This document shows positions 125 to 15,984 of a stretch of DNA of 64,000 nt, piece by piece; the first letter of the stretch is position 1; each line of letters starts with the position of its first letter. The notes beneath the pieces were generated by a model. The model was given only the letters and a program-made list of their open reading frames with translations. It was not told where the DNA came from and did not search any database. This DNA comes from Streptomyces sp. SLBN-31 (GTDB taxonomy: Bacteria; Actinomycetota; Actinomycetes; Streptomycetales; Streptomycetaceae): positions 4,154,001 through 4,218,000 of the forward strand of contig NZ_VFNC01000001.1 in assembly GCF_006715395.1 (NCBI RefSeq), given 5' to 3'. Both the position numbers and the translations under genes were made by a program.

Positions 125-1465
125 TCAGCTGCCGGCGGTGGCGACGTCGGCGGGCGCGGCCACCGGCCGTGCGGCAGCGGCAGGTTGGGCGGGTGGGCCG
201 ACGGGGCGCTCACGCAGGAACAGCGACGCGGCCAGGCCGATGACGCCGGTCGCGGCCATGTACAGGGCGATGGGCGTCCAGCTGTGGTACCTGCCGAGCA
301 GGGAGGTGGCGATGAGGGGGCTGACGGCGCCGCCGAGCAGACCGCCCACGTTGTAGCTGATGGACATCCCGGAGTAGCGCAGCGCCGTGGGGAACAGCTG
401 CGGGTAGAACGCGCCCTGCACGCCGTAGTTCGCGGCGAACCCGGCGAACAGGATCAGGAAGCCGAGCGCCATCAGCGGCAGGGACCTGGTCCCAAGCAGC
501 GGGAACCAGACGAAGGGGGCCACCGTCATGACGGCGATGCCGCCGACGAAGACCGCCTTGCGGCCGCGGCGGTCCCCGAGCCGGCCGAAGAACGGCATGG
601 CGACGATCAAAAAGAGGCACGACCCGGCGAGCAGCGTCAGCATCTGCGAGCGGCTCACGTGGAGGGTCGCGGCGTATTTGAGGGAGAACACCGACCCGAG
701 GTAGAAGACCAGGAACATCGGCAGCGCCGACAGCGACGCGCACAGGGTGAGCAGACCGTGCCGCCCCACGATCTCCAGCGCCGGTACGGTCCTGACGGCG
801 CCCTCGGACTTCACCTGCTCGAACTCGGGGGTCTCCGCCAGCCGCAGCCGCACGCGCAGCGCGAAGGCCACGAGCACCGCGCTGAACAAAAACGGCAGCC
901 GCCATCCCCACGCCAGCACCTGACGCTCCGGCAGCAGGGTGACCAGCAGCAGCACGCCGTTGGCCAGCAGCAGCCCCCAGGCGTTGCCGGTGCCGACGAT
1001 CGCGGTGAGCAGGCCCCGCCTGCTGGGCCGGGCGTTCTCCAGCGCCATCAGGAAACCGCCGCTGGACTCCCCGCCGAGCGAGCACCCTTGCACGAACCGC
1101 AGGACGGTCAGCAGGACCGGGGCGGCGACTCCGATCGTGCGGTAGGTGGGCAGCAGGCCGATCAGGACCGTCGCGCCGCCCATCACGGTGAGCGTGGCGA
1201 CCAGCGTCGTCCTGCGGCCCAGCCGGTCCCCGAGGTGCCCGAACACGAGGGCACCCAGCGGCCGGCCCACGAAGGCGACCGCGAACGTCGACAGCGACAG
1301 CAGGGTCGCGGTGGTGGGGGCGAAGGAGGGGAAGAACAGGGTGCCGAAGTACAGGGACGAGAACGACCCGTAGATGAGGAACTCGTAGAACTCGATGCTG
1401 TTGCCGATGAGGCTGCTCAGTACGGCTCTTCTGCGCTGCCCTTCGGATGTGCGCAGGGAGGTCAT
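125..1465 (-). CDS. MFS permease, metabolite:H+ symporter (MHS) type
   Basis: Predicted inner-membrane proton-coupled carrier of 446 residues, the usual MHS length. The N-terminus carries the typical MHS opening (IEFYEFLIYGSFSSLYFG, near residues 23-40). The loop between helices 2 and 3 carries GHLGDRLGRR, the MFS signature, and a second copy of that type (FFGRLGDRRGRKA) sits between helices 8 and 9. About 12 hydrophobic segments are visible, with an Ala-rich hydrophilic C-terminus. The ATG is preceded by GAAGGAG five bases away. The family takes up small organic acids and osmolytes such as citrate, shikimate or proline-betaine. The substrate cannot be read from the sequence. It stands alone, next to a TnpB element. 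Confidence 0.85.
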   Translation of the reverse strand: MTSLRTSEGQRRRAVLSSLIGNSIEFYEFLIYGSFSSLYFGTLFFPSFAPTTATLLSLSTFAVAFVGRPLGALVFGHLGDRLGRRTTLVATLTVMGGATVLIGLLPTYRTIGVAAPVLLTVLRFVQGCSLGGESSGGFLMALENARPSRRGLLTAIVGTGNAWGLLLANGVLLLVTLLPERQVLAWGWRLPFLFSAVLVAFALRVRLRLAETPEFEQVKSEGAVRTVPALEIVGRHGLLTLCASLSALPMFLVFYLGSVFSLKYAATLHVSRSQMLTLLAGSCLFLIVAMPFFGRLGDRRGRKAVFVGGIAVMTVAPFVWFPLLGTRSLPLMALGFLILFAGFAANYGVQGAFYPQLFPTALRYSGMSISYNVGGLLGGAVSPLIATSLLGRYHSWTPIALYMAATGVIGLAASLFLRERPVGPPAQPAAAARPVAAPADVATAGS

Positions 1466-1486
1466 CGTGGCTCCTTCGTGGATGCC

Positions 1487-1515
1487 GCGGCCTTCAGGCC
1501 GGGGAGGAATCGAAG
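1487..1515. repeat. IS605/TnpB-type end motif, left copy
   Basis: The stretch CCTTCAGGCCGGGGAGGAA nearly repeats the hairpin-plus-GGGGAGGAA motif found just after the TnpB gene (2817-2846). It lies in the leader of the permease gene. It is either the remains of another element's right end or part of this element's left flank. Confidence 0.45.
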
Positions 1516-1620
1516 TTCCTGCGGAGCAGGGCAGGGAAAGGCGAATCGCCTCTGCGGCGGTTCGGTGTGTGCGGTCGGCCGACGCCCGGTCCTCACAGGG
1601 GAGCTGATAGAACGTGAGGT

Positions 1621-2829
1621 ATGGCGCGGCAGGTCAAGCGGGCGTTCAGGTATCGCTTTTACCCCACGGACGAGCAGGCGGCGGAGCTGTCGCGCACGTT
1701 CGGCTGCGTCCGCCTGGTGTTCAACAGGGCGTTGGAGGAGCGCACCCGGGCCTGGTACGGCGAGCAGCGCCGCATCTCCTACGTGCAGTCCTCCGCCGCG
1801 CTCACCCAGTGGAAGAAGACCGAGGAGCTGGCCTTCCTGACCGAGGTGTCCTCCGTTCCGCTGCAGCAGGCGCTGCGTCATCTGCAGACGGCGTTCGCCA
1901 ACTTCTTCGCCAAGCGCGCGAAGTATCCGCGGTACAAGAGCCGGAAGAAGTCCCGCGCGTCGGCCGAATACACCCGCTCCGCCTTCACCTGGCGCGAGGG
2001 GAAGCTCACGCTGGCCAAGATGGCGCAGCCGCTGGACGTCCGCTGGTCGCGGCCGTTGCCCGAGGGTGCGGAGCCGACCACGGTGACCGTCTCCCGCGAT
2101 GCGGCGGGCCGTTGGTTTGTGTCCCTGCTGTGCGAGGACTCCGTCGCAGCGGCCCCCGCCACGAACACGGTGGTCGGCCTGGACGCCGGGATCACCTCGC
2201 TGGTGACCTTGTCCACCGGCGAAAAGGTGGCCAACCCCCGACACGACCGCCGCGACCGTGCCCGCCTGGCGAAGTCCCAGCGGGAGCTGTCCCGCAAGGC
2301 CAAGGGCTCCGCGAACCGGGAGAAAGCCCGTCGTCGCGTCGCCAGGGTCCACGCGCGGATCGCCGACCGGCGCCGCGACTTCCTGCACAAGGTGTCGACT
2401 CGACTCGTCCGTGAGAACCAAACGGTCGTGATCGAGGACCTCACCGTCCGCAACCTGCTGAAGAACGGCACGCTCGCGCGCGCCATTTCCGATGCGGCAT
2501 GGACGGACCTGCGCATGATGCTGGAGTACAAGTGCGCCTGGTACGGGCGCGAACTCGTGGTGATCGACCGCTTCTTCCCCTCCAGCAAGCTGTGTGGGAA
2601 CTGTGGCACGGTCTTCGAGAAGCTGCCGCTCAACGTCCGCGCGTGGACGTGCGAGTGCGGCGCCGTGCACGACCGCGACGTGAACGCGGCACGCAACATT
2701 CTGGCCGCCGGGCTGGCGGCGTCTGCCTGTGGAGACGGTGTAAGACCTCAACGGGAGTCCTCCCGGACGGGGCGGTCGTCGGAGAAGCAGGAACCCCAGC
2801 GGGCGACCGCTGGAATCCCCCGCCTTTAG
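1621..2829 (+). CDS. tnpB: TnpB, RNA-guided nuclease of an IS200/IS605-group element
   Basis: Full-length 402-residue TnpB/OrfB. The N-terminal helix-turn-helix part (residues 1-50) reads FRYRFYPTDEQ. The RuvC-like nuclease is complete: Asp near residue 187 in VVGLDAGITSL, Glu near 272 in VVIEDLTVRNL, and Asp in DRDVNAARN near 351-353. A four-Cys zinc ribbon (CGNCG and CECG) lies between the last two. In this family the protein uses an RNA from its own 3' end and the element's right end to cut DNA next to a short TAM, which helps keep the element in place. No tnpA (Y1 transposase) lies beside it, so movement would need a TnpA in trans. All catalytic residues are present, so it is probably active. 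Confidence 0.93.
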   Translation: MARQVKRAFRYRFYPTDEQAAELSRTFGCVRLVFNRALEERTRAWYGEQRRISYVQSSAALTQWKKTEELAFLTEVSSVPLQQALRHLQTAFANFFAKRAKYPRYKSRKKSRASAEYTRSAFTWREGKLTLAKMAQPLDVRWSRPLPEGAEPTTVTVSRDAAGRWFVSLLCEDSVAAAPATNTVVGLDAGITSLVTLSTGEKVANPRHDRRDRARLAKSQRELSRKAKGSANREKARRRVARVHARIADRRRDFLHKVSTRLVRENQTVVIEDLTVRNLLKNGTLARAISDAAWTDLRMMLEYKCAWYGRELVVIDRFFPSSKLCGNCGTVFEKLPLNVRAWTCECGAVHDRDVNAARNILAAGLAASACGDGVRPQRESSRTGRSSEKQEPQRATAGIPRL

Positions 2830-2846
2830 GCAGGGGAGGAAGTCAA
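2700..2846 (+). ncRNA. Putative reRNA (omega RNA) region and right end of the TnpB element
   Basis: The last ~130 bases of tnpB run into an imperfect hairpin (CCCCGCCT/AGGCAGGGG, 2817-2835) followed by GGAGGAAGTCAA. The same layout follows the other two TnpB relics in this window. In studied TnpB systems this position yields the scaffold RNA, and bases just past the right end (here about 2847 on) act as the guide. The boundary at GTCAA is inferred from the relic at 27575-27823. The 5' end of the RNA is not visible. Confidence 0.45.
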
Positions 2847-3015
2847 GGCGTCTCCGAGGCTCAGTGGTCGACGGTGCCGGTGAAGGGGGTGGGCCGGGGC
2901 CGGACGAGCGGGCAGCGCCGGTGAAACGCGCGGCCCGTCCGCCCATGGCAGGACGTGCGCCCGAACGCGCGGCGCACGCCACCGCCGCGGCCGCCCCCGG
3001 TCGAAGGCGGGCCAG

Positions 3016-4719
3016 CTAGCTGGAAAAGTCCTCCTCCCACCACTCCTGCGCCGAGCGCGTGAGCCGCTGCTCCTCGCGCCGGCGCAGCTCGGCCCGCTGG
3101 GTCTTGCCGGAGATGGTCTTGGGCAGCTCGGCGAACTCGATCCGGCGTATCCGCTTGTAGGGGGCGAGGTGTTCGCGGGCGTGCGCGAGGATCTGCTGCG
3201 CGGTCTGCGCCTCCGGCCGGTAGTCGGCGGCCAGGGCGATGTAGGCCTTGGGGACGGCCAGGCGCAGCGGCTCGGGGGAGGGCACCACAGCGGCGTCGGC
3301 GACGGCCGCGTGCCGCAGCAGCACGCTCTCCAGTTCGAAGGGGGAGATGCGGTAGTCGGACGCCTTGAAGACGTCGTCGCCGCGTCCCAGGTAGCGGAAG
3401 AGGCCCTCGGCGTCGCGGGTGGCGAAGTCGCCGGTGTGGTAGAGGCCGCCGTGCAGGGCGCGGGCGGTCGCCTCGGGATCGCCGAGGTAGCCGCTCATCA
3501 GACCCAGCGGCCGGCCGGCCAGCGGCAGGCAGATCTCGCCCTCCGCCGCCCCGTCCAGGAGGGGGGTGTTGGTCCGCGCGTCCAGCAGGGCCACGTCGTA
3601 GCCCGGCAGCGCCCAGCCCAGCGCGCCCTCCACGGCCGGCATCCCCGGCGGGGTGCCGATCTGGGCGGTGGTCTCGGTCTGCCCGTAGCCGTCCCGTACG
3701 GTGACGCCCCAGGCGTCGCGGATGCGGTGCACGACCCCCGCGTTGAGCGGTTCCCCGGCGGCCACCGCCTCGCGCAGCCGGATGGGCCAGCGGGTCAGGT
3801 CCTCCTGGATGAGGCTGCGCCACACGGTGGGCGGCGCGCAGAAGGAGGTCGCCGCGCAGCGGGACATCATCTGAAGCAGCGGACGGGCCGCGAACCGGGG
3901 CTGGTTGACGACCAGGACCGTGGCCTGCGCGTTCCAGGGGGCGAACAGGCAGCTCCAGGCGTGTTTCGCCCAGCCGGGCGAGGAGATGTTCAGGTGCACA
4001 TCCCCGGGGCGCAGCCCGAGCCAGTACATGGTCGACAGGTGACCGACCGGATAGCTCAGCCCGGTGTGGCCGACCATCTTGGGGCGGGCCGTGGTGCCGG
4101 AGGTGAAGTAGATGAGCGAGGGCTCCTCGGGCCGGGTCCGTACCGCCTCCCGCAGCGGTGCGGCGGCGTAGGCCCGCTGGTAGTCCTGCCAGCCCGCCAC
4201 CGGGTCCCCGACGGCGACGCGTGTCCAACTGCCGTGCAGGCCGTCGAGTTTGGGGGTGAGGTCGGCCTGGGCGATGACGTGCCGCACCGCGCCGCGCTCC
4301 AGCCGTTCGGCCAGGTCCTCGGGGGTCAGCTGGACGGCCGCGGGGATGACTGCGGCGCCCAGCCGGAACGCGGCCAGCACGCACTCCCACAGCTCCACCC
4401 GGTTGCCGAGCATGAGCAGGACACGGTCCCCGCGCCGCACGCCGATCGATTGCAGCCATCCGGCGACCCGCCGGGAGCGTTCGGCCAGTTCGGCGAAGCT
4501 GACGGCCGTGTCGGCGAGGATGGCGCCGTGCCGGTCGAGGTCGAGCACGCGCAGCGCGGTGGCGTCGTTGCCGTCGGAGATGACGTCGAACCAGTCCGCG
4601 ACCCAGCTGAACGTCTCGCCGAGGGCGGGCCGGGGGAAGGCGCGGGCGCGCGGCAGGTCCCCGTAGGAGGACAGCAGGTGGTCGCGGGCGCGCCGGAACG
4701 CTTCGGTCGCTTCACGCAT
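3016..4719 (-). CDS. AMP-forming acyl-CoA ligase
   Basis: Adenylate-forming ligase of 567 residues that should activate a carboxylic acid to its CoA thioester. Visible motifs: the P-loop-like IYFTSGTTARPKM, the A5-type DGYGQTETT, YHTGDFATRD, and the C-terminal GKTQRAELRRRE with the catalytic Lys in PKTISGKTQ. The layout resembles medium-chain or aromatic acyl-CoA synthetases, and I cannot name the substrate. The start chosen is the ATG at 4719. The frame stays open upstream, but there it overlaps the crotonase gene. It is the last gene of the minus-strand paa-like operon, five bases after the crotonase stop, so it most likely loads the acid processed by the epoxidase-like complex. Confidence 0.9.
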   Translation of the reverse strand: MREATEAFRRARDHLLSSYGDLPRARAFPRPALGETFSWVADWFDVISDGNDATALRVLDLDRHGAILADTAVSFAELAERSRRVAGWLQSIGVRRGDRVLLMLGNRVELWECVLAAFRLGAAVIPAAVQLTPEDLAERLERGAVRHVIAQADLTPKLDGLHGSWTRVAVGDPVAGWQDYQRAYAAAPLREAVRTRPEEPSLIYFTSGTTARPKMVGHTGLSYPVGHLSTMYWLGLRPGDVHLNISSPGWAKHAWSCLFAPWNAQATVLVVNQPRFAARPLLQMMSRCAATSFCAPPTVWRSLIQEDLTRWPIRLREAVAAGEPLNAGVVHRIRDAWGVTVRDGYGQTETTAQIGTPPGMPAVEGALGWALPGYDVALLDARTNTPLLDGAAEGEICLPLAGRPLGLMSGYLGDPEATARALHGGLYHTGDFATRDAEGLFRYLGRGDDVFKASDYRISPFELESVLLRHAAVADAAVVPSPEPLRLAVPKAYIALAADYRPEAQTAQQILAHAREHLAPYKRIRRIEFAELPKTISGKTQRAELRRREEQRLTRSAQEWWEEDFSS

Positions 4720-4724
4720 GAGGG

Positions 4725-5507
4725 CTACCTCCCGTTGAAGGTGGCGCGGCCGGGCCCGTCGGCGGCGAAGGTCCGCATGCCGCTCAGCCGGTCCTCGGTG
4801 GCGAACAGGGCGGCGAACACCGACCGTTCGATGGCCAGACCGGAGGCCAGGTCGGTCGCAAGGCCCTGGTCGACGGCCGTCTTGGCGGCGTGCAGGGCCA
4901 GGGCGGGGCCCTTTTCGAAGCGCCGCGCCCAGCGCAGCGCGGCGGGCAGCACCTGGCCGGTCGGCACGACCTGGTCCACCAGGCCCAGTTCCAGGGCCTC
5001 CTCCGCTTTGACCTGGCGGCCGGTGAAGATGAGTTCCTTGGCCTTGGCCGGGCCGATCAGCCGGGGCAGCCGCTGGGTGCCGCCGGCTCCGGGGATGACG
5101 CCGAGCAGGACCTCGGGCAGTCCCAGGCGGGCCTCGGTTCCGCAGATGCGGGCGTCGGCGGTCAGCGCCAGCTCGCAACCGCCGCCGAGGGCGGGCCCGT
5201 TGATCGCGGCCACCACCGGTTTGGGGATGGCGGCCACCGCGTCGAAGGCGCCCTGGAGGACCGGGGCGTGGGCCACCATCTCGGCGTGCGTCATCGCGGC
5301 CATCTCCTTGATGTCGCCGCCGGCCGAGAAGGCCGTGGGCCCGCCGTACAGGACCACCGCGCGGATCCGCTCGTCGCCTGTGGCCTGCTCGGCCGCGGCG
5401 CGCAGCGCCAACTGGGCCGCACGGTCCAGGACGTTCAGCGGCGGCCGGTCAAGGCGCAGGATGCCCACCGCTCCGTCGAGGTCCAGGTACGCGGAGAGGC
5501 GTTCCAT
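4725..5507 (-). CDS. Enoyl-CoA hydratase/isomerase (crotonase family)
   Basis: 260-residue crotonase-fold enzyme. The oxyanion-hole segments FSAGGDIKEM and INGPALGGGCELAL are present. Both glutamates typical of hydratases are seen, one in GGGCEL and one in GLPEVLLGVIPGAGG. In the phenylacetate pathway crotonases (PaaF/PaaG) hydrate or isomerise ring-epoxide and enoyl-CoA products, so a similar role on this operon's product is plausible. ATG at 5507 is used. A TTG at 5525 overlapping the upstream SDR stop would add six residues and would give translational coupling. Confidence 0.88.
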   Translation of the reverse strand: MERLSAYLDLDGAVGILRLDRPPLNVLDRAAQLALRAAAEQATGDERIRAVVLYGGPTAFSAGGDIKEMAAMTHAEMVAHAPVLQGAFDAVAAIPKPVVAAINGPALGGGCELALTADARICGTEARLGLPEVLLGVIPGAGGTQRLPRLIGPAKAKELIFTGRQVKAEEALELGLVDQVVPTGQVLPAALRWARRFEKGPALALHAAKTAVDQGLATDLASGLAIERSVFAALFATEDRLSGMRTFAADGPGRATFNGR

Positions 5508-5521
5508 CGTGGGGGTGCTGG

Positions 5522-6265
5522 TCAAGACCACAGCAGGCCTCCGTTGACTTCGAGGACGTGGCCGTTGACGTAGCTGGATTCGGGACCGGCCAGGAACAGG
5601 GCCGCGTCGGCGGCCTCGTCGGCGCCGCCGGGCCGGCCGAGGGCCAGCCGGGTCTTGTAGCGCGCCCAGATCTTGTCGTTCTCGGTGAGCTGCTGGCCCA
5701 TGCCCTCGTCGAGGATGCCGGGGGCCAGGGAGTTGACCAGGATGCCGCGGGGGCCGAGCTCGATGGCGCTGACGCGGGTGAACATCTCCACCGCGGCCTT
5801 GGTGGCGCAGTATCCGGCCGCGCCGATGGCGACCCGGGTGGCCATGCTGGAGGAGACGTTGATGATCCGGGGGGCCTGGCTGCGTTCCAGGTAGGGAATG
5901 GCCGCCTGGGTGCACAGGAACACCCCGGTGAGGTTGGTGGCCACCATGTCCTGCCAGTCGGTGACCGGCAGCCGGTCCACCCGCCCGTCCCGGCTCACGC
6001 CGGCGTTGGCGACCAGGATGTCCACGCCGCCGAACCGGTCGGCGGTCTCGGCCATCAGTGCGGCGACCGAGTCGGGGCTGGTGACGTCGACCGGGACGTA
6101 GGCGCCGCGGCCGGGGGAGAGGTCGAGGACCTCCTTGATGTCGTAGGGGTTGCGGGCCGCGCAGACCACCTGCGCGCCCTCGAGCAGGTAGCGTTCCGCG
6201 ATCGCGCGGCCCAGTCCCCGGGAGCCCCCGGTGATCACGGCCGTCTTTCCGGCGAGCCTCATCAT
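5522..6265 (-). CDS. Short-chain dehydrogenase/reductase (SDR)
   Basis: Classical NAD(P)-dependent SDR of 247 residues. The cofactor motif GGSRGLGRA is near residue 14, NAG follows strand 4, and the catalytic Ser and YCATK motif are present. The C-terminus ends VNGHVLEVNGGLLWS, typical of FabG-like 3-oxoacyl reductases. It starts with two consecutive ATGs (6265 and 6262) overlapping the paaD stop in an ATGATGA arrangement, so the two genes are translationally coupled. It probably reduces a 3-keto or hydroxyacyl-CoA intermediate made by the ketosynthases or crotonase of the same operon. Confidence 0.88.
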   Translation of the reverse strand: MMRLAGKTAVITGGSRGLGRAIAERYLLEGAQVVCAARNPYDIKEVLDLSPGRGAYVPVDVTSPDSVAALMAETADRFGGVDILVANAGVSRDGRVDRLPVTDWQDMVATNLTGVFLCTQAAIPYLERSQAPRIINVSSSMATRVAIGAAGYCATKAAVEMFTRVSAIELGPRGILVNSLAPGILDEGMGQQLTENDKIWARYKTRLALGRPGGADEAADAALFLAGPESSYVNGHVLEVNGGLLWS

Positions 6266-6777
6266 GATCCTCCTTGCCTGACGTGGGGGACCGGGAGCAC
6301 GGCGGAGCAGCCGGCCGTCCCGATCACATCGAAGGGCGATCCGCAGCCGCGGCAGTCGTAGGGCACCTTGCAGACCGCGCCGCCGAAGCGGCCTGCCCGT
6401 ACGACGTCGTCGCCGGCGCAGTAGGGGCAGCGGGGCGTGGTGCCCGCCACGCGGTAGCCGGCGGTGCGCAGGGCGTCGTGCCCGGCGGCGGTCACCGCGG
6501 CGGGCTGCCATGTGCCGCGCTCCCACACGATCTCGATTGCGTGCCCGGGCGCGGCGCCGGTGAGGGCGGAGCGCACCCGCCGGGCGATTTCGCCGCGGGC
6601 GGGGCAGCTGAGCCGGGTGGGGGCGAGGTGGACCACGATCCGGCCGTCGGTGCGGGACACCGAGCGCACCACTCCGAGGTCGCCCAGGGTCACGTCGATC
6701 TCCGGATCGAGCACGTCGGCGACGACGCCGGTGAGCGGGTCGGGGGACGGAATCGCGGCGGTGGCAGGGGTGTTCAC
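6262..6777 (-). CDS. paaD: PaaD-like iron-sulfur/diiron maturation protein
   Basis: 171-residue PaaD (PaaJ) homologue. The N-terminal half is a MIP18/DUF59 domain (VLDPEIDVTLGDLGVVRSV and the conserved Cys in LSCPARGEI). The C-terminal half is a zinc-ribbon-like Cys cluster (CPYC near residue 121, then C..DCRGCG). PaaD is needed for assembly of the phenylacetyl-CoA epoxidase PaaABC but is not part of the core catalytic complex. The GTG start overlaps the PaaB-PaaC stop (GTGA), so it is translated together with it. Its presence shows the oxygenase locus is organised like a genuine paa cluster. Confidence 0.85.
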   Translation of the reverse strand: MNTPATAAIPSPDPLTGVVADVLDPEIDVTLGDLGVVRSVSRTDGRIVVHLAPTRLSCPARGEIARRVRSALTGAAPGHAIEIVWERGTWQPAAVTAAGHDALRTAGYRVAGTTPRCPYCAGDDVVRAGRFGGAVCKVPYDCRGCGSPFDVIGTAGCSAVLPVPHVRQGGS

Positions 6778-7808
6778 AGGAACACCTCCGGGGCGTAGTG
6801 CTCGCGCACGAGGCGGCCGCGCGCCAGGCAGTCGGCCAGCACGCTGCCGCCGCTTCCCGCGGCCCGCGGCACCGGCTGGTGCGGCAGGCGGGAGCCGGGG
6901 ACGCCGCTGTCACCGACGAGTGCCGTCAGACGCGCGTGCAGCGCCTGAGTCACGGCGTCGTGCGGGCCGGCGCCGAACAGGTCGCCGGCGCAGTGCGTCA
7001 CCTCGGCGTAGGCCTGGGTGAACTCCTCACTCGTCTCGGGCCAGGCGGCCAGCGCCCGCGCCCAGCGCCGCCAGTGCTCCAGGTGGACCAGCTGTTCGTC
7101 GCGGATGGCGGCGAACGCGGGCTCGCCGGCGGCCCGTTCCTCGGCGAGCACACTGACGGCCGCGGAGATCACCAGAGCGCACACCACGGTGGACGGCCAG
7201 TCGGTGAGCCGTCCGATGACACGGGAGACCCGCCACTGCTCCTGCGGCCGTTCGAAGAGGTGGGCGTCGGCGGCGGACGCGTCGAATCCGTGCAGTGACA
7301 GGATGGTCTCGGCGTGCGCCAGTGCCTCCTGCCCGATGGAGCCGACCGCCAGGGACTCCTCCAGGTCGATGTAGTCGACGATGCGTTCGCCCAGCCGGTT
7401 GCCCAGCACGAACAGGTCCTCGGCGAGTGCCAGCCACAGTCCGCTCCGGGCGCGGCCGGCGCTCTCGCGCCTCTCGTTGTCGTGCGGGGCCGCGGAGTTG
7501 TGCTGCGGGGTGTCGGGGGCGGCGGAGCGGTCGCGGCGGCGGGTGGTGGGGAAGCCGGGCTGGCGGTGCGGCATCCGGGTCTTGGCGGCGAGCAGGCCGC
7601 GGTCCTCGGCGCTGGAGACGATCAGGTCGGTGCGCCGTACCACCCAGAGCCGGAAGAGGTCGTCGCGGCGCCCGTAGGTCTCCTTGGCCAGGTGCCAGGC
7701 GGCGTCCCGGCGCGGCGCGACGAGGGAGCCGACGTGATTGAGCGGCGAGCCGCTGCCGGTCTGTGCGAACACCTCGTAGACGTCGGTGTCGGCGGGAACG
7801 TGCGGCAT
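6774..7808 (-). CDS. paaBC: Fused PaaB-PaaC subunit of a phenylacetyl-CoA-epoxidase-like complex
   Basis: 344-residue protein made of two normally separate subunits. Residues 1 to about 95 match PaaB: DVYEVFAQTGSG, HVGSLVAPRRDAAWHLAKE and LFRLWVVRRTDLIVS. After a roughly 25-residue Arg/Pro-rich linker, residues ~120-344 match PaaC, the helical ferritin-like partner of PaaA (LALAEDLFVLGNRLGERI, IGQEALAHAETIL, EEFTQAYAEV). In characterised bacteria PaaB is a ~95-residue bridging protein encoded separately from the ~250-residue PaaC. The join is in one continuous frame with no stop. The start overlaps the paaA stop (ATGA). The fusion probably fixes the B:C ratio. Confidence 0.85.
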   Translation of the reverse strand: MPHVPADTDVYEVFAQTGSGSPLNHVGSLVAPRRDAAWHLAKETYGRRDDLFRLWVVRRTDLIVSSAEDRGLLAAKTRMPHRQPGFPTTRRRDRSAAPDTPQHNSAAPHDNERRESAGRARSGLWLALAEDLFVLGNRLGERIVDYIDLEESLAVGSIGQEALAHAETILSLHGFDASAADAHLFERPQEQWRVSRVIGRLTDWPSTVVCALVISAAVSVLAEERAAGEPAFAAIRDEQLVHLEHWRRWARALAAWPETSEEFTQAYAEVTHCAGDLFGAGPHDAVTQALHARLTALVGDSGVPGSRLPHQPVPRAAGSGGSVLADCLARGRLVREHYAPEVFL

Positions 7809-8695
7809 CACGCCACCCCCCGCAGGGCGCGCCGGTAGCGCGCGTTGCGGTCCAGGGCACCGCGCACCCAGTCCAGCCGGCGCTGTGAGGCGGGGCCGCC
7901 GTTTGCGATGACCTTCTTCACCTCGGCCCAGTCGGGCATCGCGAACTCCCATGCACCTGAAGGCAGTTGGCGGGCCAGTGCGGGATCCACGTGCACGCCG
8001 AGCTTCTCGAAGACCGGGATGATCTTGCCGAGCCAGGCCTGGCGCAGCTCGTCGTTGCCGTCGGGCTTCAGCCCGATCTGGTGCATGCGATTGGCGTGCA
8101 GCGTCTCGGTGTCCGGCGGGCCGAGGTAGGCCAGCACCCGCGGCAGCCACGTCTCGAAGCCCTCCTGCACGCGGCGGCGCTGGTCGGCGTCTCCGTGCGT
8201 CAGCACCTCGTGGGTCAGATCCAGGGCGTGCTGGTAGTGGAAGGACTCCTCGCGCTCGATCTTGCGCAGCGCCCGGCTGTAGGGCAGGTAGACGCCCTTC
8301 ATCAGCGACCGGAACTGGAAGATCGCCGCCGAGTTCATCAGCAGCAGCCCCGGGCCGAACTCCTCCCAGGACGCGAAGGAGTAGTGGAAGATGTTGTGCA
8401 CCTTCGAGCGGCCCTCCAGGTAGTCCACCAGGATCCGCTCGCGTGGCATGCCCAGGTCCTCGGCGACCCGCGCGGCCACGTGCCCGTGGCCCACCTCGTC
8501 CTGGACCTTGGCCATCAGCATCTGCCGCCGGGTGCAGCTGGGCGCGCGGTCCAGCCACTCGGCGAACGGCAGCACGCCCACCAGCTCGTTGAGCGCCTGG
8601 ACGGTGGCGAACCGCCGGGCGCCCTCGCGTACCTCGTCGGGCATCGGGTCCCACAGTTCGTAGCGGCGGGGTTCCGCCGCTGTCGCTGTCGGCAT
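7808..8695 (-). CDS. paaA: PaaA-like catalytic subunit, diiron acyl-CoA epoxidase
   Basis: 295-residue ferritin-like oxygenase subunit close to PaaA in length (about 310). Helix motifs with metal-binding character are seen: QDEVGHGHVAARVAEDLGM and EREESFHYQHALDL (the E...EExxH pattern). The ATG at 8695 has AAAGGAAC eight bases upstream, so the longer frame from 8722 is not used. In the phenylacetate pathway PaaA epoxidises the aromatic ring of phenylacetyl-CoA using electrons from PaaE. No paaE is found in this operon, so the reductant must come from elsewhere. The substrate here may differ from phenylacetyl-CoA, because the operon also carries two ketosynthase-like genes. Confidence 0.88.
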   Translation of the reverse strand: MPTATAAEPRRYELWDPMPDEVREGARRFATVQALNELVGVLPFAEWLDRAPSCTRRQMLMAKVQDEVGHGHVAARVAEDLGMPRERILVDYLEGRSKVHNIFHYSFASWEEFGPGLLLMNSAAIFQFRSLMKGVYLPYSRALRKIEREESFHYQHALDLTHEVLTHGDADQRRRVQEGFETWLPRVLAYLGPPDTETLHANRMHQIGLKPDGNDELRQAWLGKIIPVFEKLGVHVDPALARQLPSGAWEFAMPDWAEVKKVIANGGPASQRRLDWVRGALDRNARYRRALRGVA

Positions 8696-8750
8696 GTCTG
8701 GTTCCTTTCGCAGCGCTTGCACGGTTTGCAGCGGTGTCGCGGGAGGGGGC

Positions 8751-9743
8751 TCAGTACCAGCGGACGACCACGGCCCCCGCGGTCATGCCGCCGCCCACTC
8801 CCGCCAGCACCAGGCGCTCGCCCCGGCGGAAGGGCCGCAGTTCGTTCTCCGCGCGCAGGGTGAGGGGGATGGAGGCGGTGGCGGTGTTGCCGAAGTGCGG
8901 TGCGGTCAGCGGGACCCGGCCGGGGTCCACGCCCAGTTCGCGCGTACAGGCCTCGACCAGGCGGGTGTTGGCCTGGTGCAGGATGAAGCGGTCCACGTCC
9001 TCCAGCCGCACCCCGGCGGAGTCGAGTGCCTCGCCGATGACCTTGGGCAGCACGCCGAGGGCGTAGTCGCGCACCTCGCGCCCGCGCATGCGGAACAGGT
9101 GCTCGCCGGCCTCCCGGCTGCGGGCGTCCAGCGGCGTACGGGTGCCGCCGGCGGGCACCTCGACCAGTTCGCGGTGCTCGCCGTGGGCGACCAGGCGCCA
9201 GCCCAGTACGCCGTACCCGTCGGGCACCGGGCCGAGCAGCACCGCGCCGGCCCCGTCGCCGAAGAGGCTGACGGTGCGCCGGTCGGAGCGGTTCATCAGC
9301 GAGGAGTACATGTCGGTGCCGACCACCAGGGCGTGATCGCCGCCCTGGCCGGCCAGCCGCGCCGACAGCATCGAGTCGGCGACCGCGAGTGCGTAGAGGA
9401 AGCCCGAGCACACCGCGTTGACGTCGAACGCCGGGACGTCGGACAGGCCGAGCTTGTTCTGCAGGATGGCCCCGGTGGAGGGTTGCGGCTGGTCCGGCGT
9501 GGAGGTGGCCACGACCATCACACCGAGCCGGGCCACCGCCTCCGGCCGGCTGCCCAGCGCCTCACGCGCGGCGTGCAGCGCCAGGTCGGAGGTGACCGTC
9601 CCGGGCTCGCGGTACCTGCGCTCCAGGATGCCGGTGCGCTCGACGATCCAGCTCTCTTGCGCGCCCGTCCACTGGGCGACCTGCGCGTTGTCGATGACCC
9701 GCGGCGGCACGTGACCGCCCAGGCCGAGGAATCCGAAGCCCAT
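8751..9743 (-). CDS. FabH-type 3-oxoacyl synthase (KAS III family)
   Basis: 330-residue thiolase-fold condensing enzyme with a complete KAS III triad: Cys112 in NAVCSGFLYAL, His256 in ILHQANTRLVE and Asn286 in HFGNTATASIPL. Length and motif spacing match FabH. Such enzymes condense an acyl-CoA starter with malonyl-ACP, and relatives in secondary metabolism use unusual starters or act as acyltransferases. The ATG at 9743 overlaps the stop of the upstream thiolase-fold gene (ATGA). The pair is probably co-translated and could form a heterodimer. It likely uses an acyl-CoA made or modified by the ligase and PaaABC-like oxygenase in this operon. Confidence 0.9.
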   Translation of the reverse strand: MGFGFLGLGGHVPPRVIDNAQVAQWTGAQESWIVERTGILERRYREPGTVTSDLALHAAREALGSRPEAVARLGVMVVATSTPDQPQPSTGAILQNKLGLSDVPAFDVNAVCSGFLYALAVADSMLSARLAGQGGDHALVVGTDMYSSLMNRSDRRTVSLFGDGAGAVLLGPVPDGYGVLGWRLVAHGEHRELVEVPAGGTRTPLDARSREAGEHLFRMRGREVRDYALGVLPKVIGEALDSAGVRLEDVDRFILHQANTRLVEACTRELGVDPGRVPLTAPHFGNTATASIPLTLRAENELRPFRRGERLVLAGVGGGMTAGAVVVRWY

Positions 9744-10813
9744 CACACGCCCTTCGCCGAAGCCCGGTCTCGCGGTGTGCCGTCCGGTACCTGCACGACG
9801 GCGCAGGCCCACGTCCAGGCCGCCCCGCCGCTGATCACCAGGGCGACGTCGCCGGGCTCGAGCGGCACCCGGTCGCGCATGTCGGCGAGGTTGGCGAAGA
9901 AGTCGCCGCACCCCAGGTGGCCGGTGGCGGAGCCGAACCGCAGGGCCTCGGCCTTGAGCAGCTCGTCGAGCACGGGGCCGTAGATGGAGTCCAGCAGGCT
10001 CGCCCCCAGCCGCGGCAGCGCGATGTACTTGATCCGCGGGTCGTCGGGCTCCAGCCCCGCGTCGTGCAGGCTGTCGGTGATCACCTTGCGGATGTTGCGG
10101 CCGGCGATGGTCTCGAACTTCTCCTTGCCGTACGCCGCCATGTAGGACTTCTTGGGGGTGCGCAGGTCGATGAAGCCGTCGTGCCACATGGGAGCCGGGC
10201 TGAAGTCGTTGCCGTGCCGCATCATCAGCTCGAACTGGGCGTCGGTCGCGGTGGCCAGGGACAGCAGGGCGTAGTCGTCGGATCCTGCGTCGCCCCGGTG
10301 CACCAGGGCCGCGGTCCCGGCGTCACCGAAGCCGAGGCCGTAGTCGGAGGTCCAGCGGTCCATGCCCGGAGGGCAGAACCGGTCGCCCGTCGTGACGAGC
10401 ACGGCACCCAGACCGGCGTCGGCGTCCAGATGCATCCCGGCCAGTTGCAGGGCCAACGAGCCCGCATTGCAGCCCTGTTGGACGCCGTAGGGCGTGGCGG
10501 TGCCGGCACCGACCGCGTGGGCCACGTAGTGCGGCGGCGACCACATGTCATGGCCCTGGTGGTAGATCCAGGTGTGCAGGACCAGGCCGATGTCGGACGG
10601 GCTCCAGCCCGCCCGGCTCAGTGCGGCACGGCCGGCCTCCGCGGCCATCTCGGGGGCGGACAGGGTGGCCGAGAACGGCAGGTGGCTGACGCCGAGCCGC
10701 TCCGCGTCCGATTCGGTCAGCTTCCCGGCCGCCACGGCGTCCTCGACGTTCTCGCGGTCCGGTGGAAACCACGAGGTCACGGTCTTGATCCGCAGATCGT
10801 TTCCGAATTTCAT
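9743..10813 (-). CDS. KAS III-like thiolase-fold protein with an altered active site
   Basis: 356-residue relative of FabH and the first gene of the operon. The nucleophile Cys (about residue 115, GVQQGCNAGSLALQLAG) is kept. The segment where FabH has its HQAN His reads YIALPRLGAS, and where it has GNT it reads GHLGCGDFFANL. The classical Cys-His-Asn triad is therefore not intact. Family precedent includes acyl-transferring KAS III homologues and unequal partners such as PqsB/PqsC, where one subunit lacks full catalysis. It may be an acyltransferase or the non-condensing half of a heterodimer with the downstream FabH. ATG with AAGGAG five bases upstream. Confidence 0.8.
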   Translation of the reverse strand: MKFGNDLRIKTVTSWFPPDRENVEDAVAAGKLTESDAERLGVSHLPFSATLSAPEMAAEAGRAALSRAGWSPSDIGLVLHTWIYHQGHDMWSPPHYVAHAVGAGTATPYGVQQGCNAGSLALQLAGMHLDADAGLGAVLVTTGDRFCPPGMDRWTSDYGLGFGDAGTAALVHRGDAGSDDYALLSLATATDAQFELMMRHGNDFSPAPMWHDGFIDLRTPKKSYMAAYGKEKFETIAGRNIRKVITDSLHDAGLEPDDPRIKYIALPRLGASLLDSIYGPVLDELLKAEALRFGSATGHLGCGDFFANLADMRDRVPLEPGDVALVISGGAAWTWACAVVQVPDGTPRDRASAKGV

Positions 10814-11014
10814 GCAGGCTCCTTCGAAAGCTCGGGATCCGTGTCGCGTGCGGGTCGCCGGCCGACGAGCGGAGGCCGGGTTGAGTGCTCGGCGCTTCGT
10901 CCGGCCGGGAAGAGAAGGGGACGCCGTTCCAGGCGCGGTGCGCTCCGCAGGTCCTCGGCCACCGGGGTGGGTCATCGGCGCACCGGGCCACCAGTGGCTT
11001 CCGGCCCACAATCG

Positions 11015-11034
11015 CATACCTTCGCAGAGGTATG
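11015..11034. promoter_or_regulatory. Inverted repeat, candidate operator O1 of the paa-like operon
   Basis: CATACCTTCGCAGAGGTATG has perfect 7-base arms around a 6-base centre. It lies about 200 bases upstream of the first operon gene. A related 20-mer at 11189-11208 matches it at 15 of 20 positions. Paired copies in a divergent intergenic region suggest a dimeric repressor controlling both the operon and the exporter. No regulator gene is adjacent. Confidence 0.55.
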
Positions 11035-11094
11035 TAACTGCTGCAGGCCGCGCTGCACCGCCTCGCGCCGTGGGCGCCGGTAAGGCGCCTGCCG

Positions 11095-11127
11095 CTGTGC
11101 AAGTGGGGAGGGTCCGCACTTGCACAG
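11095..11127. promoter_or_regulatory. Perfect 11-bp inverted repeat with 11-bp spacer
   Basis: CTGTGCAAGTG and its exact reverse complement flank an 11-base G-rich spacer, so the arm centres are two helical turns apart. It sits between the two related 20-bp palindromes. It may be a second regulator's site or an RNA hairpin in one of the leaders. Confidence 0.45.
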
Positions 11128-11188
11128 GCCGTCCAACTGGGCGCATTGCATGCGAAGTTGACCGGCTCCGACCCCCGCTCCCAATTTA

Positions 11189-11208
11189 CATACCTTCACG
11201 AAGGGATT
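11189..11208. promoter_or_regulatory. Candidate operator O2 of the exporter gene
   Basis: CATACCTTCACGAAGGGATT is the second, less perfect copy of the 20-bp palindrome at 11015-11034. It lies about 70 bases upstream of the DHA2 exporter start, a sensible place for repression or activation of that gene. Confidence 0.5.
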
Positions 11209-11275
11209 ATTCTCGGGCGCAGAACCCACCACGGGCGGCCACCGCCCCGCTCACCCCGAAGGAAGAAGCCACCCC

Positions 11276-12745
11276 ATGGCCACCACAGACTCCCGATCGC
11301 CACGGTGGGCCGGGTACACCCTCGCCCTGCTGGCGTTCACCCAGTTCATCGTCACCATCGACTACAACATCGTCTACGTGGCACTGCCGGACATCGGCAG
11401 CCAGCTCGGCTTCTCCGCGCAGTCACTGCAATGGGTCGTCAGCGCCTACGCGGTCGCACTCGGCGGACTGCTGCTCTTCGGAGGCCGCGCCGCCGACCGG
11501 ATCGGCCCGCGCCGCATGCTGGTCACCGGACTCGTCATCTACGCCCTGTCCTCCCTCACCGGCGGCCTCGCCCAGAACGCCGGACTCCTGGTGGCCGCCC
11601 GCGCGCTCCAGGGCGTGGGCGGTGCGCTGCTGACACCGGCGACGCTGATGCTCATCTTCACCACGTTCGCCCCGGGCCCGGAGCGCAACCGGGCCACATC
11701 CGTGTGGGGCGCCGTCGGCAGCGCGGGCCTGGCGGCGGGCTCCCTGTTCGGCGGAGTACTGACCAGCGCCTTCGGCTGGAGCTGGGTCTTCTACGTCAAC
11801 GTCCCCCTCGCGCTCATCGCGGCGTTCGCCGCCACCCGGATCCTGCCGCCCGACCGCCCGCTCGGCACCGGCCGCAGCTTCGACGCCGTCGGCGCCGCAG
11901 TCGCCACCGCCGGCTCGACACTGCTGGTGTTCGGCCTGGTCAGCGGCCCGGACAAGGGCTGGGGCTCGCTGGAAGGCCTCGGCGCCCTGACGGCCGGCGC
12001 GCTGCTGCTGGCGGTCTTCGTCCTGATCGAGAAGCGCTCGGCGGACCCTCTGGTGCCCCTGAAGCTGTTCCGCCTGCGGGGCCTGAACATCCCCATGCTG
12101 GCGCTGATCGTCTTCCAGGCGTCCCTGGGCGGCACCTACTACCTGCTCACCACCTACCTGCAGTCCGTGCTGAACTACAGCCCGTTCGCCGCCGGCATCG
12201 CCTTCCTGCCGCCCACCGTGATCTGCATGGCGGTGGCGATGAAGCTCAACGCCCGGGTCCTGGGCCTGCTGGGCGTCCGCACCACGCTCTTCCTCGGCAC
12301 CACCGCCACCGCCGTCGGACTGGCCGCCATCATCGCCGGCATGTCCACCCACGGCTCCTACTGGGCCCTGGTGCCGGGCATCGCCATCTGGGGCGCCGGC
12401 GGCGGCTTCGCCTTCCCGACGCTCTTCGTCGCGGTGGCATCCTCGGGCGCCGAACCCGCCCAGCAGGGCGTCGCCTCGGCACTCGCCTCCACCTGCCGGC
12501 AGATCGGCGGCGCCCTCGGCCTCGCCGCCCTGGTCGCCGTCGCCAATGCCCACGCCGGCCACCACCCCGACCCGCACGCCCTGGTCGGCGGCCTGCGCAT
12601 GGCAGGCTGGGTCGCCGCCGTCGGCACCCTCGGCGGCGCGCTCATCGGACTCGGCCTGAAGAAGCAGCCCCGGCCGACCCCCACACCCGCCACCACCCCG
12701 GCAACGGCACCGGACGTCACCGACGCCGCCACACAGGCGGGCTGA
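11276..12745 (+). CDS. DHA2-family MFS drug/metabolite exporter
   Basis: 489-residue 14-helix MFS antiporter of the EmrB/QacA (DHA2) type. Helix 1 carries FTQFIVTIDYNIVYVALPDIG, the family hallmark. Motif A appears as GGRAADRIGPRRM and motif C as the Gly-rich GAVGSAGLAAGSLFGG. The ATG is preceded by GAAGGAAG. It is divergent from the paa-like operon and shares operator-like palindromes with it, so it is the likely export and self-resistance pump for that operon's product. A strong hairpin follows the gene, ending the transcript before korA. Confidence 0.88.
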   Translation: MATTDSRSPRWAGYTLALLAFTQFIVTIDYNIVYVALPDIGSQLGFSAQSLQWVVSAYAVALGGLLLFGGRAADRIGPRRMLVTGLVIYALSSLTGGLAQNAGLLVAARALQGVGGALLTPATLMLIFTTFAPGPERNRATSVWGAVGSAGLAAGSLFGGVLTSAFGWSWVFYVNVPLALIAAFAATRILPPDRPLGTGRSFDAVGAAVATAGSTLLVFGLVSGPDKGWGSLEGLGALTAGALLLAVFVLIEKRSADPLVPLKLFRLRGLNIPMLALIVFQASLGGTYYLLTTYLQSVLNYSPFAAGIAFLPPTVICMAVAMKLNARVLGLLGVRTTLFLGTTATAVGLAAIIAGMSTHGSYWALVPGIAIWGAGGGFAFPTLFVAVASSGAEPAQQGVASALASTCRQIGGALGLAALVAVANAHAGHHPDPHALVGGLRMAGWVAAVGTLGGALIGLGLKKQPRPTPTPATTPATAPDVTDAATQAG

Positions 12746-12769
12746 CGCCGCTCCACCCCCGGCGGCGAT

Positions 12770-12803
12770 CCGGGCGCCCGCACCCCCCGATGCGGGCGCC
12801 CGG
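12770..12803 (+). terminator. Strong hairpin terminator after the exporter gene
   Basis: Arms CCGGGCGCCCGCA and TGCGGGCGCCCGG pair perfectly over 13 bases with an 8-base loop, 25 bases past the stop codon. There is no clear T-run, as is common in high-GC actinomycetes. Confidence 0.7.
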
Positions 12804-13031
12804 CACCGGGGCGCCACAGCGAGCGCACGACACGCACCACCGGTGGGCGCCTGTGCGCGCCTCAACGGCGGACGCACGGTCACCGACGGACGAGACGCCG
12901 ACAGCGACCGCTCAACCGTCCCCCGTCGACTCCGCGGCACGACCCACCCTCCCTCCTCACCGGGGCGACGACCGCGCACGGCGGCCTCCGGCACCGCGAT
13001 CCGCGAGACCAAGGACGACAGGAGCTTTCCG

Positions 13032-14922
13032 ATGCTTGTCCAGACCGGCCCGTCCACCGAGGCCGAGGCACCGCCCGCCAAAGAGGTCCGCCGGCTGGAG
13101 CGAGTGGTCATCCGGTTCGCGGGCGACTCCGGCGACGGCATGCAACTGACGGGCGACCGCTTCACGTCGGAGACCGCCTCGTTCGGCAACGACCTGTCCA
13201 CACTGCCGAACTTCCCCGCGGAGATCCGGGCGCCCGCAGGAACCCTGCCGGGCGTGTCCTCCTTCCAACTGCACTTCGCCGATCACGACATCCTCACGCC
13301 CGGCGATGCCCCCGACGTCCTGGTCGCCATGAACCCGGCCGCCTTGAAGGCGAACCTGCCGGATCTACCGCGCGGCGCCGAACTCATCGTCAACACGGAC
13401 GAGTTCACCGAGCGCGCACTGGCCAAGGCCGGCTACCCGACAAACCCGCTCGCGGATGGCTCCCTGGACGGCTACCACGTCCACCCGGTAGCGCTGGGAA
13501 CCCTGACGGTGGAGGCACTGAAGACCCACGGGCTGTCCCGCAAGGACGCCGACCGGTCGAAGAACATGTTCGCGCTGGGCCTGCTGTCCTGGATGTACCA
13601 CCGGCCCACACACGGCACGGAAGCTTTCCTGCGGCGCAAGTTCGCCAAGAAGCCGGCCATCGCCGAGGCGAACATCGCCGCCTTCCGGGCGGGCTGGAAC
13701 TTCGGCGAGACGACCGAGGACTTCGCGGTCTCCTACCAGGTCGCCCCGGCCACGCAGGCGTTCACGCCGGGTACCTACCGCTCCATCTCCGGGAACCTGG
13801 CCCTGTCCTACGGCTTGGTCGCCGCCTCCCACCAGGCGGACCTGCCGCTGTTCCTCGGCTCGTACCCGATCACCCCGGCGTCGGACATCCTGCACGAGCT
13901 GAGCCGGCACAAGAACTTCGGCGTACGCACCTTCCAGGCCGAGGACGAGATCGCCGGCATCGGCGCCGCCCTGGGCGCGGCCTTCGGCGGTTCGCTGGGC
14001 GTGACGACGACCTCGGGCCCAGGCATCGCGCTGAAGTCGGAGACCATCGGCCTGGCGGTCTCCCTGGAACTGCCGCTGCTGATCATCGACATCCAGCGGG
14101 GCGGCCCCTCCACGGGCCTGCCGACCAAGACCGAGCAGGCGGACCTGCTGCAGGCGATGTTCGGCCGCAACGGCGAGGCCCCGGTCCCGGTGATCGCCCC
14201 GGCCACTCCCTCGGACTGCTTCGACACGGCACTGGAAGCGGCCCGGATCGCACTGACCTACCGCACCCCCGTCCTGCTGCTGTCTGACGGCTACCTGGCC
14301 AACGGCTCCGAACCCTGGCGCATCCCCGAACTCGATGAACTACCCGACCTGACCGTGCAGTTCGCGCAGGGACCGAACCACACCCTTAACGACGGCAGCG
14401 AGGTGTTCTGGCCCTACAAGCGCGACCCCCACACGCTCGCGCGCCCCTGGGCCATCCCCGGCACCCCGGGGCTGGAGCACCGCATCGGCGGCATCGAGAA
14501 GCAGGACGGCACGGGCAACATCTCCTACGACCCCGCCAACCACGACTTCATGGTCCGCACCCGCCAGGCCAAGATCGACGGCATCGCCGTCCCCGATCTC
14601 GACGTGGACGACCCGCACGGGGCCCGCACCCTGGTGCTGGGCTGGGGCTCGACCTACGGACCCATCACCGCGGCTGTCCGCCGGCTGCGGGCGGCCGGCG
14701 AGTCCATCGCCCAGGCGCACCTGCGCCACCTCAACCCCTTTCCGCGCAACCTCGGCGAGATCCTGTCCCGATACGACCGCGTCGTCGTCCCCGAGATGAA
14801 CCTCGGCCAGCTGGCCACGCTGATCCGCGCGCGATACCTGGTCGACGCCCGCTCCCACACCCAGGTCAACGGCATGCCGTTCAAGGCGGAACAGCTTGCA
14901 GACGTACTGGAGGAAGTCATCC

Positions 14923-14933: not shown

Positions 14934-15984
<1,051 letters not shown>

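Follow-up and report, generated by a model that had tools for sequence, protein, structure and literature searches.

A Streptomyces operon with a divergent PaaA-type oxygenase and two ketosynthase III-like proteins is probably part of a 3-amino-4-hydroxybenzoate-type metabolite cluster

We analysed a 64,000-nucleotide stretch of the 9.47-Mb genome of Streptomyces sp. SLBN-31 (the window, which starts at C1:4154001), in which eight minus-strand genes at positions 3016-10813 encode an oxygenase related to phenylacetyl-coenzyme A (CoA) epoxidase (Paa), two proteins of the ketosynthase III (KSIII) type, and associated enzymes. These genes appear to form the right-hand operon of a specialised-metabolite cluster of about 35 kb (C1:4131509-4166745) that is cut by the window edge, and the locus as a whole is best explained if the cluster oxidises CoA-bound 3-amino-4-hydroxybenzoic acid (3-amino-4-hydroxybenzoate; 3,4-AHBA) or a derivative; we give this reading a probability of about 0.6. 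One cluster would then probably make, ring-oxidise and export a small molecule built from 3,4-AHBA. The initial annotation, which could not see the larger regulon, had proposed a biosynthetic pathway. Context favours that view (3,4-AHBA genes, a carboxylic acid reductase (CAR), P450s, AfsA, TetR, operators and the exporter), while its KSIII assignment and its borders have to be amended.

Scans of family libraries bore out the families originally named for all eight genes (Table 1), which are transcribed in the order KSA, KSB, PaaA, fused PaaB-PaaC, PaaD, short-chain dehydrogenase/reductase (SDR), crotonase and acyl-CoA ligase. They had been described as mostly joined by overlaps of 1-4 bases, which holds for 4 of the 7 junctions (1, 1, 4 and 4 bases). 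Two others are gaps of 55 and 5 bases, and the crotonase junction is either a 10-base overlap, with a GTG start at 5531, or a 14-base gap, with an ATG at 5507. Both catalytic Glu motifs of the crotonase (GGGCELA and LPEVLLG) were recognised by eye. An AlphaFold2 model of the PaaB-PaaC fusion (mean predicted local distance difference test score, pLDDT, of 72; alignment of 22 rows, the window sequence plus 21 of 48 listed proteins) matches the PaaC structure 4iit_C with an E value of 5.6e-7, and its PaaB part weakly matches 3egr_A (E 0.019). No Rfam family matched positions 1-16000 at gathering cut-offs.

To the left of the window the cluster continues with the genes listed in Table 1, among them a GriI-like aldolase (PRK07226, 300.2 bits; cut-off 241) linked to a GriH-like 3,4-AHBA synthase (PRK02290.1-3, 479 bits; cut-off 375). 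More narrowly defined 3,4-AHBA families stayed under their cut-offs (ADH_synth 257.6 of 299.45, BagB_FevI 297.2 of 500, BagC_FevH 362.9 of 750). The CAR assignment was confirmed on the orthologue in locus L040 (NCBIfam, 1635 bits; cut-off 1300), and the gene is annotated as CAR on plasmid NZ_CP120998.1. That plasmid is also the source of the name ParB for the adjoining regulator, whose counterpart in the window genome has only weak helix-turn-helix matches in Pfam.

The window operon and the genes to its left share an operator-like palindrome, CATACCT-N6-AGGTATG. A 51-kb region contains 5 sites when up to 2 mismatches are allowed, whereas 200 first-order Markov shuffles give an expectation of 0.005. 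Allowing at most 1 mismatch, ATACCT-N6-AGGTAT occurs 6 times in the entire genome, and 5 of these sites lie inside the cluster. One is at the AfsA start and one precedes TetR; a third separates CAR from the ParB-like gene, and the last two stand upstream of KSA and of the exporter. The sixth, at C1:3325558-3325575, is far from the cluster. A copy with at most 1 mismatch precedes KSA in 14/14 AHBA-type loci scanned (the window, L005-L015, L018 and L107, the degenerate L014 included), and a copy precedes the exporter in all 9 scanned loci that have one; none was found in the variant locus of genome G276 or in L016 or L017. Based on these shared palindromes, the window operon seems to be controlled together with the 3,4-AHBA genes outside the window. 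A repressor of the TetR or ScbR type would bind the sites until released by a signal in whose synthesis the AfsA enzyme takes part. The drug-type exporter noted at the outset as divergent from the operon is a DHA2 protein, 83-97% identical across the clusters that have it, with an operator copy of the same set as the operon.

The eight genes first delimited are present, but the operon runs on past them to a ninth gene for an MHS-type metabolite:H+ symporter and then to a P450 (P450b) that the window edge truncates. In 9 of the 13 PaaB-PaaC loci (L005-L013), on plasmid L018 and in genome G681, the first conserved gene past the ligase is the symporter; in L009 a gap of about 1 kb separates the two. 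In the window the ligase and symporter are 1.4 kb apart, compared with about 115-190 bases in L005-L007. Homology to these three loci ends near position 2843 and restarts at the symporter start codon, so the IS200/IS605-type TnpB element found here landed in the gap between ligase and symporter and left both reading frames open. It is not part of the pathway. A second TnpB-like gene, adjoining an IS200-type Y1 transposase (Pfam), lies at L022:7548-9244.

A search of other genomes for the same gene set yielded 13 clusters in several actinobacterial genera. They comprise the window, one on the linear plasmid of Streptomyces sp. Mut1, one in genome G681, and ten in named relatives: S. hyaluromycini, Streptomyces sp. 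S.PB5, Streptomyces sp. AC555_RSS877, S. fuscichromogenes, S. canus, S. novaecaesareae, Microbispora triticiradicis, M. amethystogenes, Sphaerisporangium corydalis and Paractinoplanes ferrugineus. The scan for contigs with PaaB-PaaC itself returned 13 loci, from which the degenerate L014 and the non-cluster L016 and L017 were not counted as clusters; also outside the count are the divergent G276 and the genomes G288 and G647, which were not treated as independent of L005 and L012. The 3,4-AHBA genes lie on the same contig as the Paa genes in 12 of the 13 clusters. S. fuscichromogenes has them on a different contig, which breaks off at the matching place, and in S. novaecaesareae (L012) the contig ends within them, with GriI and the ParB-like gene still on the Paa contig (seen in L106). 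A GriH-like protein of 82-98% identity occurs in 9 of the 13 genomes with PaaB-PaaC loci, on the Paa contig in 8 (the ninth is S. fuscichromogenes), and the 3,4-AHBA synthase query found matches in 10 of these 13. The P. ferrugineus and G681 clusters are rearranged, and two GriH-like copies, each 85% identical to that of the window genome, flank the cluster in G681 (L107:2486-3607 and L108:12856-13989). The three other clusters outside Streptomyces (L010, L011 and L013) yielded nothing close to the exporter within the searched stretches. The type is rare: of the 392 genomes in the genus sample, 3 have PaaB-PaaC, the divergent G276 among them, and a KSB search of 200 genomes in the family of Sphaerisporangium returned only two clusters already known. 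A full copy on a 330-kb linear plasmid (L018, NZ_CP120998.1:38662-69800) suggests horizontal spread. In Planotetraspora, L014:8066-14338 holds remnants, namely a truncated KSA, KSB, PaaA, PaaB-PaaC, pieces of the FAD oxidoreductase and a match to the Zn dehydrogenase, and a perfect operator still stands upstream of the KSA piece.

We compared the oxygenase with its canonical counterparts and found it to be divergent throughout. All four Paa proteins score below the NCBIfam equivalog cut-offs (PaaA 214.7 against 280 for TIGR02156, PaaB 45.2 against 85.45, PaaC 45.2 against 133.35, PaaD 74.2 against 108.15), and identity between the cluster PaaA and its canonical counterparts is 31-37%. In E. 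coli PaaA the iron ligands are expected to be Glu42, Glu72, His75, Asp126, Glu155 and His158, and Lys68 bridges to Glu49, Glu72 and Asp126, an arrangement with a suggested role in electron transfer (PMC4498308, available excerpts). Position 126 is Asn and position 49 Phe or Tyr in 135/135 aligned sequences of the cluster clade (12 from clusters, 1 variant, 2 from other contexts and 120 database homologues, the best of 377, so that the alignment leans to this clade and describes it rather than giving a census). Two of the three acidic residues of the lysine bridge are thus changed. All 12 cluster PaaA sequences have Asn126 and Phe/Tyr49 and keep Lys68, and all 17 canonical and antimycin-type sequences keep both Asp126 and Glu49. 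A maximum-likelihood tree was built from 62 of the 152 aligned rows, the homologues being thinned to every fourth and the remaining sequences kept in full; it splits the cluster clade from the canonical side at 100/100.

The two KSIII proteins, both first taken for FabH-type condensing enzymes, differ in their active sites. KSB fits that description: it passes the NCBIfam PRK09352 cut-off of 249 with 307 bits and has the Cys-His-Asn triad in 13/13 rows. KSA has instead Cys115, His299 and Asp304 in 15/15 rows, His and Asp being five residues apart, and its best matches among solved structures are DpsC (E 2.7e-46), CerJ (1.2e-43) and ChlB3 (3e-31). ChlB3 transfers acyl groups by way of Cys113, His296 and Asp301, and CerJ has equivalent residues (PMC9573744, in the part available). 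This triad and these matches make acyl transfer a likelier role for KSA than condensation. Its AlphaFold2 model (mean pLDDT 47.6) was too poor for use. S. canus carries three tandem KSA copies at L009:2916-8062, with identical stretches in a mosaic and operator palindromes before each. For the ligase, the matches are to general acyl- and benzoate-CoA ligases and do not tell its specificity.

The initial annotation had also allowed for an ordinary phenylacetate-degradation locus with its remaining genes elsewhere. Sequence kinship to PaaA, PaaB, PaaC and PaaD speaks for this, but it is already contradicted and we consider it extremely improbable. The same genome holds a separate set near C3:772,000-782,000, with paaA and paaC (Pfam), paaB, a PaaD-like match (28%) and a PaaE whose 410 bits fall just below the TIGR02160 cut-off of 420.8; PaaN (994 bits; cut-off 579) and a PaaH-like gene are on the same contig. 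With a separate paaABCDE accompanied by PaaN- and PaaH-like genes on another contig, the cluster is therefore not the degradation locus. The first reading's observation that PaaE, PaaZ and a degradative thiolase are missing from the operon held for all scanned cluster genes. In the genus sample some PaaA match (E up to 1e-25) was found in 386 of 392 genomes, with at least 75% identity in 3; the other matches, among those listed, are 35-38% identical to the window PaaA. Extra PaaA copies in G363, G261, G225, G241 and G267 belong to canonical-type paa sets, and the G170 locus is ordinary paa. The separate paaABCDE on C3, the divergence (including PaaA identity and the changed bridge) and the rarity all speak against an ordinary PHENYLACETATE locus.

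We also considered an oxidative side branch within the cluster that degrades or detoxifies aminohydroxybenzoate intermediates. PaaABCD, the crotonase, the SDR and the thiolase-fold proteins do resemble a degradative series, and a sister PaaA clade, 58-62% identical to cluster PaaA (L016:8659-11115 and L017:9045-11525), sits in degradation-like surroundings as judged by eye: acyl-CoA dehydrogenase, thiolase-like, SDR and branched-chain-type ABC transporter genes, together with a gene of the pyridine-nucleotide-disulphide-reductase family and a ferredoxin-like frame (the latter also by eye). These two loci may represent a Paa-like degradation route of Actinomycetota that has not been described. 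For the cluster itself a side branch is very unlikely. KSA carries an acyltransferase triad and KSB is of the condensing type, not a thiolase; moreover, the operon is without a degradative thiolase or PaaZ and shares its operator with the exporter.

On the preferred reading, a metabolite cluster that oxidises 3,4-AHBA, a pathway can be proposed with each catalytic step assigned from protein families. The aspartate kinase would supply aspartate semialdehyde, from which the GriI- and GriH-like enzymes would make 3,4-AHBA; bagremycin biosynthesis obtains 3,4-AHBA from aspartate semialdehyde and dihydroxyacetone phosphate (PMC6692506, available text). The ligase would turn 3,4-AHBA or a close derivative into its CoA thioester, and PaaA with PaaB-PaaC, matured by PaaD, would insert oxygen into the CoA-bound ring by an epoxidation that would end as a hydroxylation, shift or ring change. 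KSB, the SDR and the crotonase would perhaps carry out one malonyl-derived two-carbon extension with reduction and dehydration, the quinone-oxidoreductase-like Zn dehydrogenase being a possible enoyl reductase in this cycle. KSA would pass the acyl group to an acceptor, which could be an amine, a hydroxyl or a carrier; CAR, the two P450s and the GMC and aldehyde dehydrogenases would tailor the product, and the DHA2 protein would export it. No matching cluster or product was found in the parts of the open-licence PubMed Central literature that were available.

Several observations weigh against this pathway or parts of it. The MHS symporter would fit acid uptake equally well. The loss of the ligand Asp126 could alter, impair or even abolish oxygenase chemistry. 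PaaABC needs PaaE in vitro (PMC9493321, available part), and none of the cluster genes was found to encode a PaaE-like reductase; nor was a ferredoxin or free carrier protein recognised by eye in small frames of the cluster gaps. P. ferrugineus has 3,4-AHBA genes and the Paa core with an exporter match of 35% at best, and 50 kb of its sequence (contig positions 10000-59999) contain no ligase, symporter or second P450 (P450b). Finally, G276 has a related core (PaaA 75%, KSB 70%, ligase 58% and KSA 43% identity) in a genome without a 3,4-AHBA synthase match, so the core need not use 3,4-AHBA.

This last point bears on an alternative in which the Paa/KSIII core acts on another CoA-activated acid, imported by the MHS symporter or made elsewhere, and 3,4-AHBA or a CAR-made aldehyde is a second half joined by KSA. 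The occurrence of the core without 3,4-AHBA genes in G276, the nearness of the ligase to general acyl and benzoate ligases, the symporter in the operon, and the possibility that CAR uses 3,4-AHBA directly are all in its favour. GriC and GriD act directly on 3,4-AHBA in grixazone biosynthesis. Linkage between the 3,4-AHBA genes and the core is, however, near total in AHBA-type clusters, and the G276 core, being more distantly related, may have switched substrate. On balance we regard this alternative as unlikely, though still to be taken seriously.

A further-reaching extension of the 3,4-AHBA reading, held only tentatively and at somewhat less than even odds, is that the Asn126 clade, with its fused PaaB-PaaC and a cluster lacking PaaE, is a new class of di-iron arene oxygenase that dearomatises or ring-expands CoA-bound 3-amino-4-hydroxybenzoate toward an undescribed natural-product family, with epoxycyclohexenone, aminotropone-like or oxepin-derived scaffolds as examples. 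The altered lysine bridge would in that case be paired with another electron donor, possibly a ferredoxin-type one, as the genes near the sister-clade loci suggest.

Outside the borders drawn here, a KS-alpha/chain length factor (CLF)-like pair with a thioesterase-like gene, recognised by eye, lies left of the cluster (L022:336-4381, equal to C1:4118336-4122381). The pair has no match in the relatives' fetched loci and probably belongs to a separate cluster. Directly past the exporter, two plus-strand genes at 12843-15984 match 2-oxoacid:ferredoxin oxidoreductase subunits (Pfam POR, POR_N and TPP_enzyme_C), with no operator of up to 2 mismatches upstream.

Table 1. Features of the cluster and of the related G276 locus. 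Bare numbers are window positions; C1, L049 and L050 mark contig and locus coordinates.
Feature	Coordinates	Strand	Remarks
ScbR-like TetR protein	C1:~4130850-4131464		
AfsA	C1:4131509-4132675		true start possibly later
acyl-CoA dehydrogenase-like gene and HAD-type gene	C1:4132849-4134827		
TetR	C1:4134958-4135533		
carboxylic acid reductase CAR	C1:4135838-4139419		
ParB-like regulator	C1:4140578-4141681		
GriI-like aldolase, GriH-like 3,4-AHBA synthase, aspartate kinase, P450a, GMC oxidoreductase			next in order
aldehyde dehydrogenase, quinone-oxidoreductase-like Zn dehydrogenase, FAD oxidoreductase	ends C1:4152321		next in order
P450b	C1:4152842-4154074		
MHS-type metabolite:H+ symporter	125-1465	minus	ninth operon gene; TIGR00883 364.7 bits, under cut-off 443
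inserted element	1466-2842	plus	IS200/IS605-type TnpB, open reading frame 1621-2829; between ligase and symporter
acyl-CoA ligase	3016-4719	minus	567 aa; MbcS / ACSM / benzoate-CoA ligase superfamily
crotonase / enoyl-CoA hydratase	4725-5531	minus	268 aa; Pfam ECH_1 205.8 bits
SDR, FabG-like ketoreductase	5522-6265	minus	247 aa; best matches FabG-type; Ser-Tyr-Lys seen by eye
PaaD-like maturation protein	6262-6777	minus	171 aa; zinc ribbon; Pfam FeS_assembly_P and Zn_ribbon_PaaD above cut-off
fused PaaB-PaaC	6774-7808	minus	344 aa; Pfam PaaB 53.9, PaaA_PaaC 34.7 bits
PaaA-type di-iron oxygenase subunit	7808-8695	minus	295 aa; Asn126 clade; Pfam PaaA_PaaC 146.8 bits
KSB	8751-9743	minus	330 aa; canonical FabH-type ketosynthase III
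KSA	9743-10813	minus	356 aa; KSIII-like acyltransferase (CerJ/ChlB3/DpsC type), more likely than condensing enzyme; first operon gene
operator palindrome CATACCT-N6-AGGTATG	11015-11034		upstream of KSA operon
second operator copy	11189-11208		upstream of DHA2 exporter; 2 mismatches over 14 fixed bases
DHA2-type major facilitator superfamily (MFS) exporter	11276-12745	plus	divergent from operon; EmrB/LmrA-like
G276 locus: PaaA, PaaB-C, PaaD, KSB, SDR, crotonase, divergent ligase	L049:3993-19955 and L050:37-3526 (whole locus)		
G276, after ligase: aminotransferase, FAD/NAD(P)-binding protein, MFS-like protein, 43% KSA			
G276, after KSA: 2-oxoglutarate-type oxygenase, ThyX-type thymidylate synthase, LOG-type gene			Pfam

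Among known systems, the PaaABCDE phenylacetyl-CoA epoxidase shares with the cluster its PaaA, PaaB, PaaC and PaaD families, 5 of the 6 iron-binding positions, Lys68 and Phe108. It differs in that here PaaB and PaaC are fused, Asp126 is replaced by Asn and Glu49 by Phe or Tyr, no PaaE was found in the cluster, and the operon is without PaaZ or a thiolase. Antimycin biosynthesis likewise places a Paa-type oxygenase in a biosynthetic cluster, with an amino-aryl thioester as substrate (predicted in our case): AntHIJKL converts anthraniloyl-AntG to 3-aminosalicylate, for which an epoxide route has been suggested (PMC3869250, available part). We assigned five antimycin-type loci by gene content, looking for a ligase and a small carrier protein next to Paa-type genes, with four genes checked in family libraries and the remainder by eye; tryptophan dioxygenase scored 327 bits (cut-off 391), kynureninase and crotonyl-CoA reductase passed their cut-offs, and a phosphopantetheine carrier is present. 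Neither of the antimycin-type neighbours, carrier protein and tryptophan dioxygenase, occurs among the cluster genes. The PaaA proteins of the five loci are 58-68% identical to canonical PaaA, with which they group, and 30-34% identical to cluster PaaA. They lie on the opposite side of the 100/100 branch from cluster PaaA; shared ancestry with AntHIJKL is therefore rejected, and AntHIJKL stays a functional precedent. Since antimycin-type PaaA is canonical and cluster PaaA is not, the two biosynthetic uses of Paa proteins arose separately.

Context thus supports a cluster of the 3,4-AHBA type that has recruited its Paa-type oxygenase separately. If this is true, Paa-type ring oxygenases have entered natural-product biosynthesis a second time, independently of antimycin, and the changed metal site makes the roles of Asp126 and the lysine bridge directly testable. 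The cluster family is defined in several actinobacterial genera with precise regulon borders. Within these borders no polyketide synthase or nonribosomal peptide synthetase gene was seen, and common genome-mining rules may for that reason overlook the cluster.

With the 3,4-AHBA clusters for grixazone, bagremycin/ferroverdin, ahbamycin and crexazone, the present one shares the GriI/GriH-type aldolase and 3,4-AHBA synthase. In contrast, the terms phenylacet and ketoacyl are absent from the available main texts on ahbamycin and crexazone, and the available bagremycin text names no Paa oxygenase or KSIII. KSA is closest among solved structures to CerJ, ChlB3 and DpsC and has the ChlB3-type Cys-His-Asp triad; unlike them, it is used next to another KSIII, of the canonical type, and a Paa oxygenase. 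Tropone and tropolone biosynthesis also uses Paa-type ring oxidation for a natural product but, as described in the accessible part of that literature, taps the phenylacetate catabolic pathway, whereas here a dedicated, divergent oxygenase is encoded inside the cluster.

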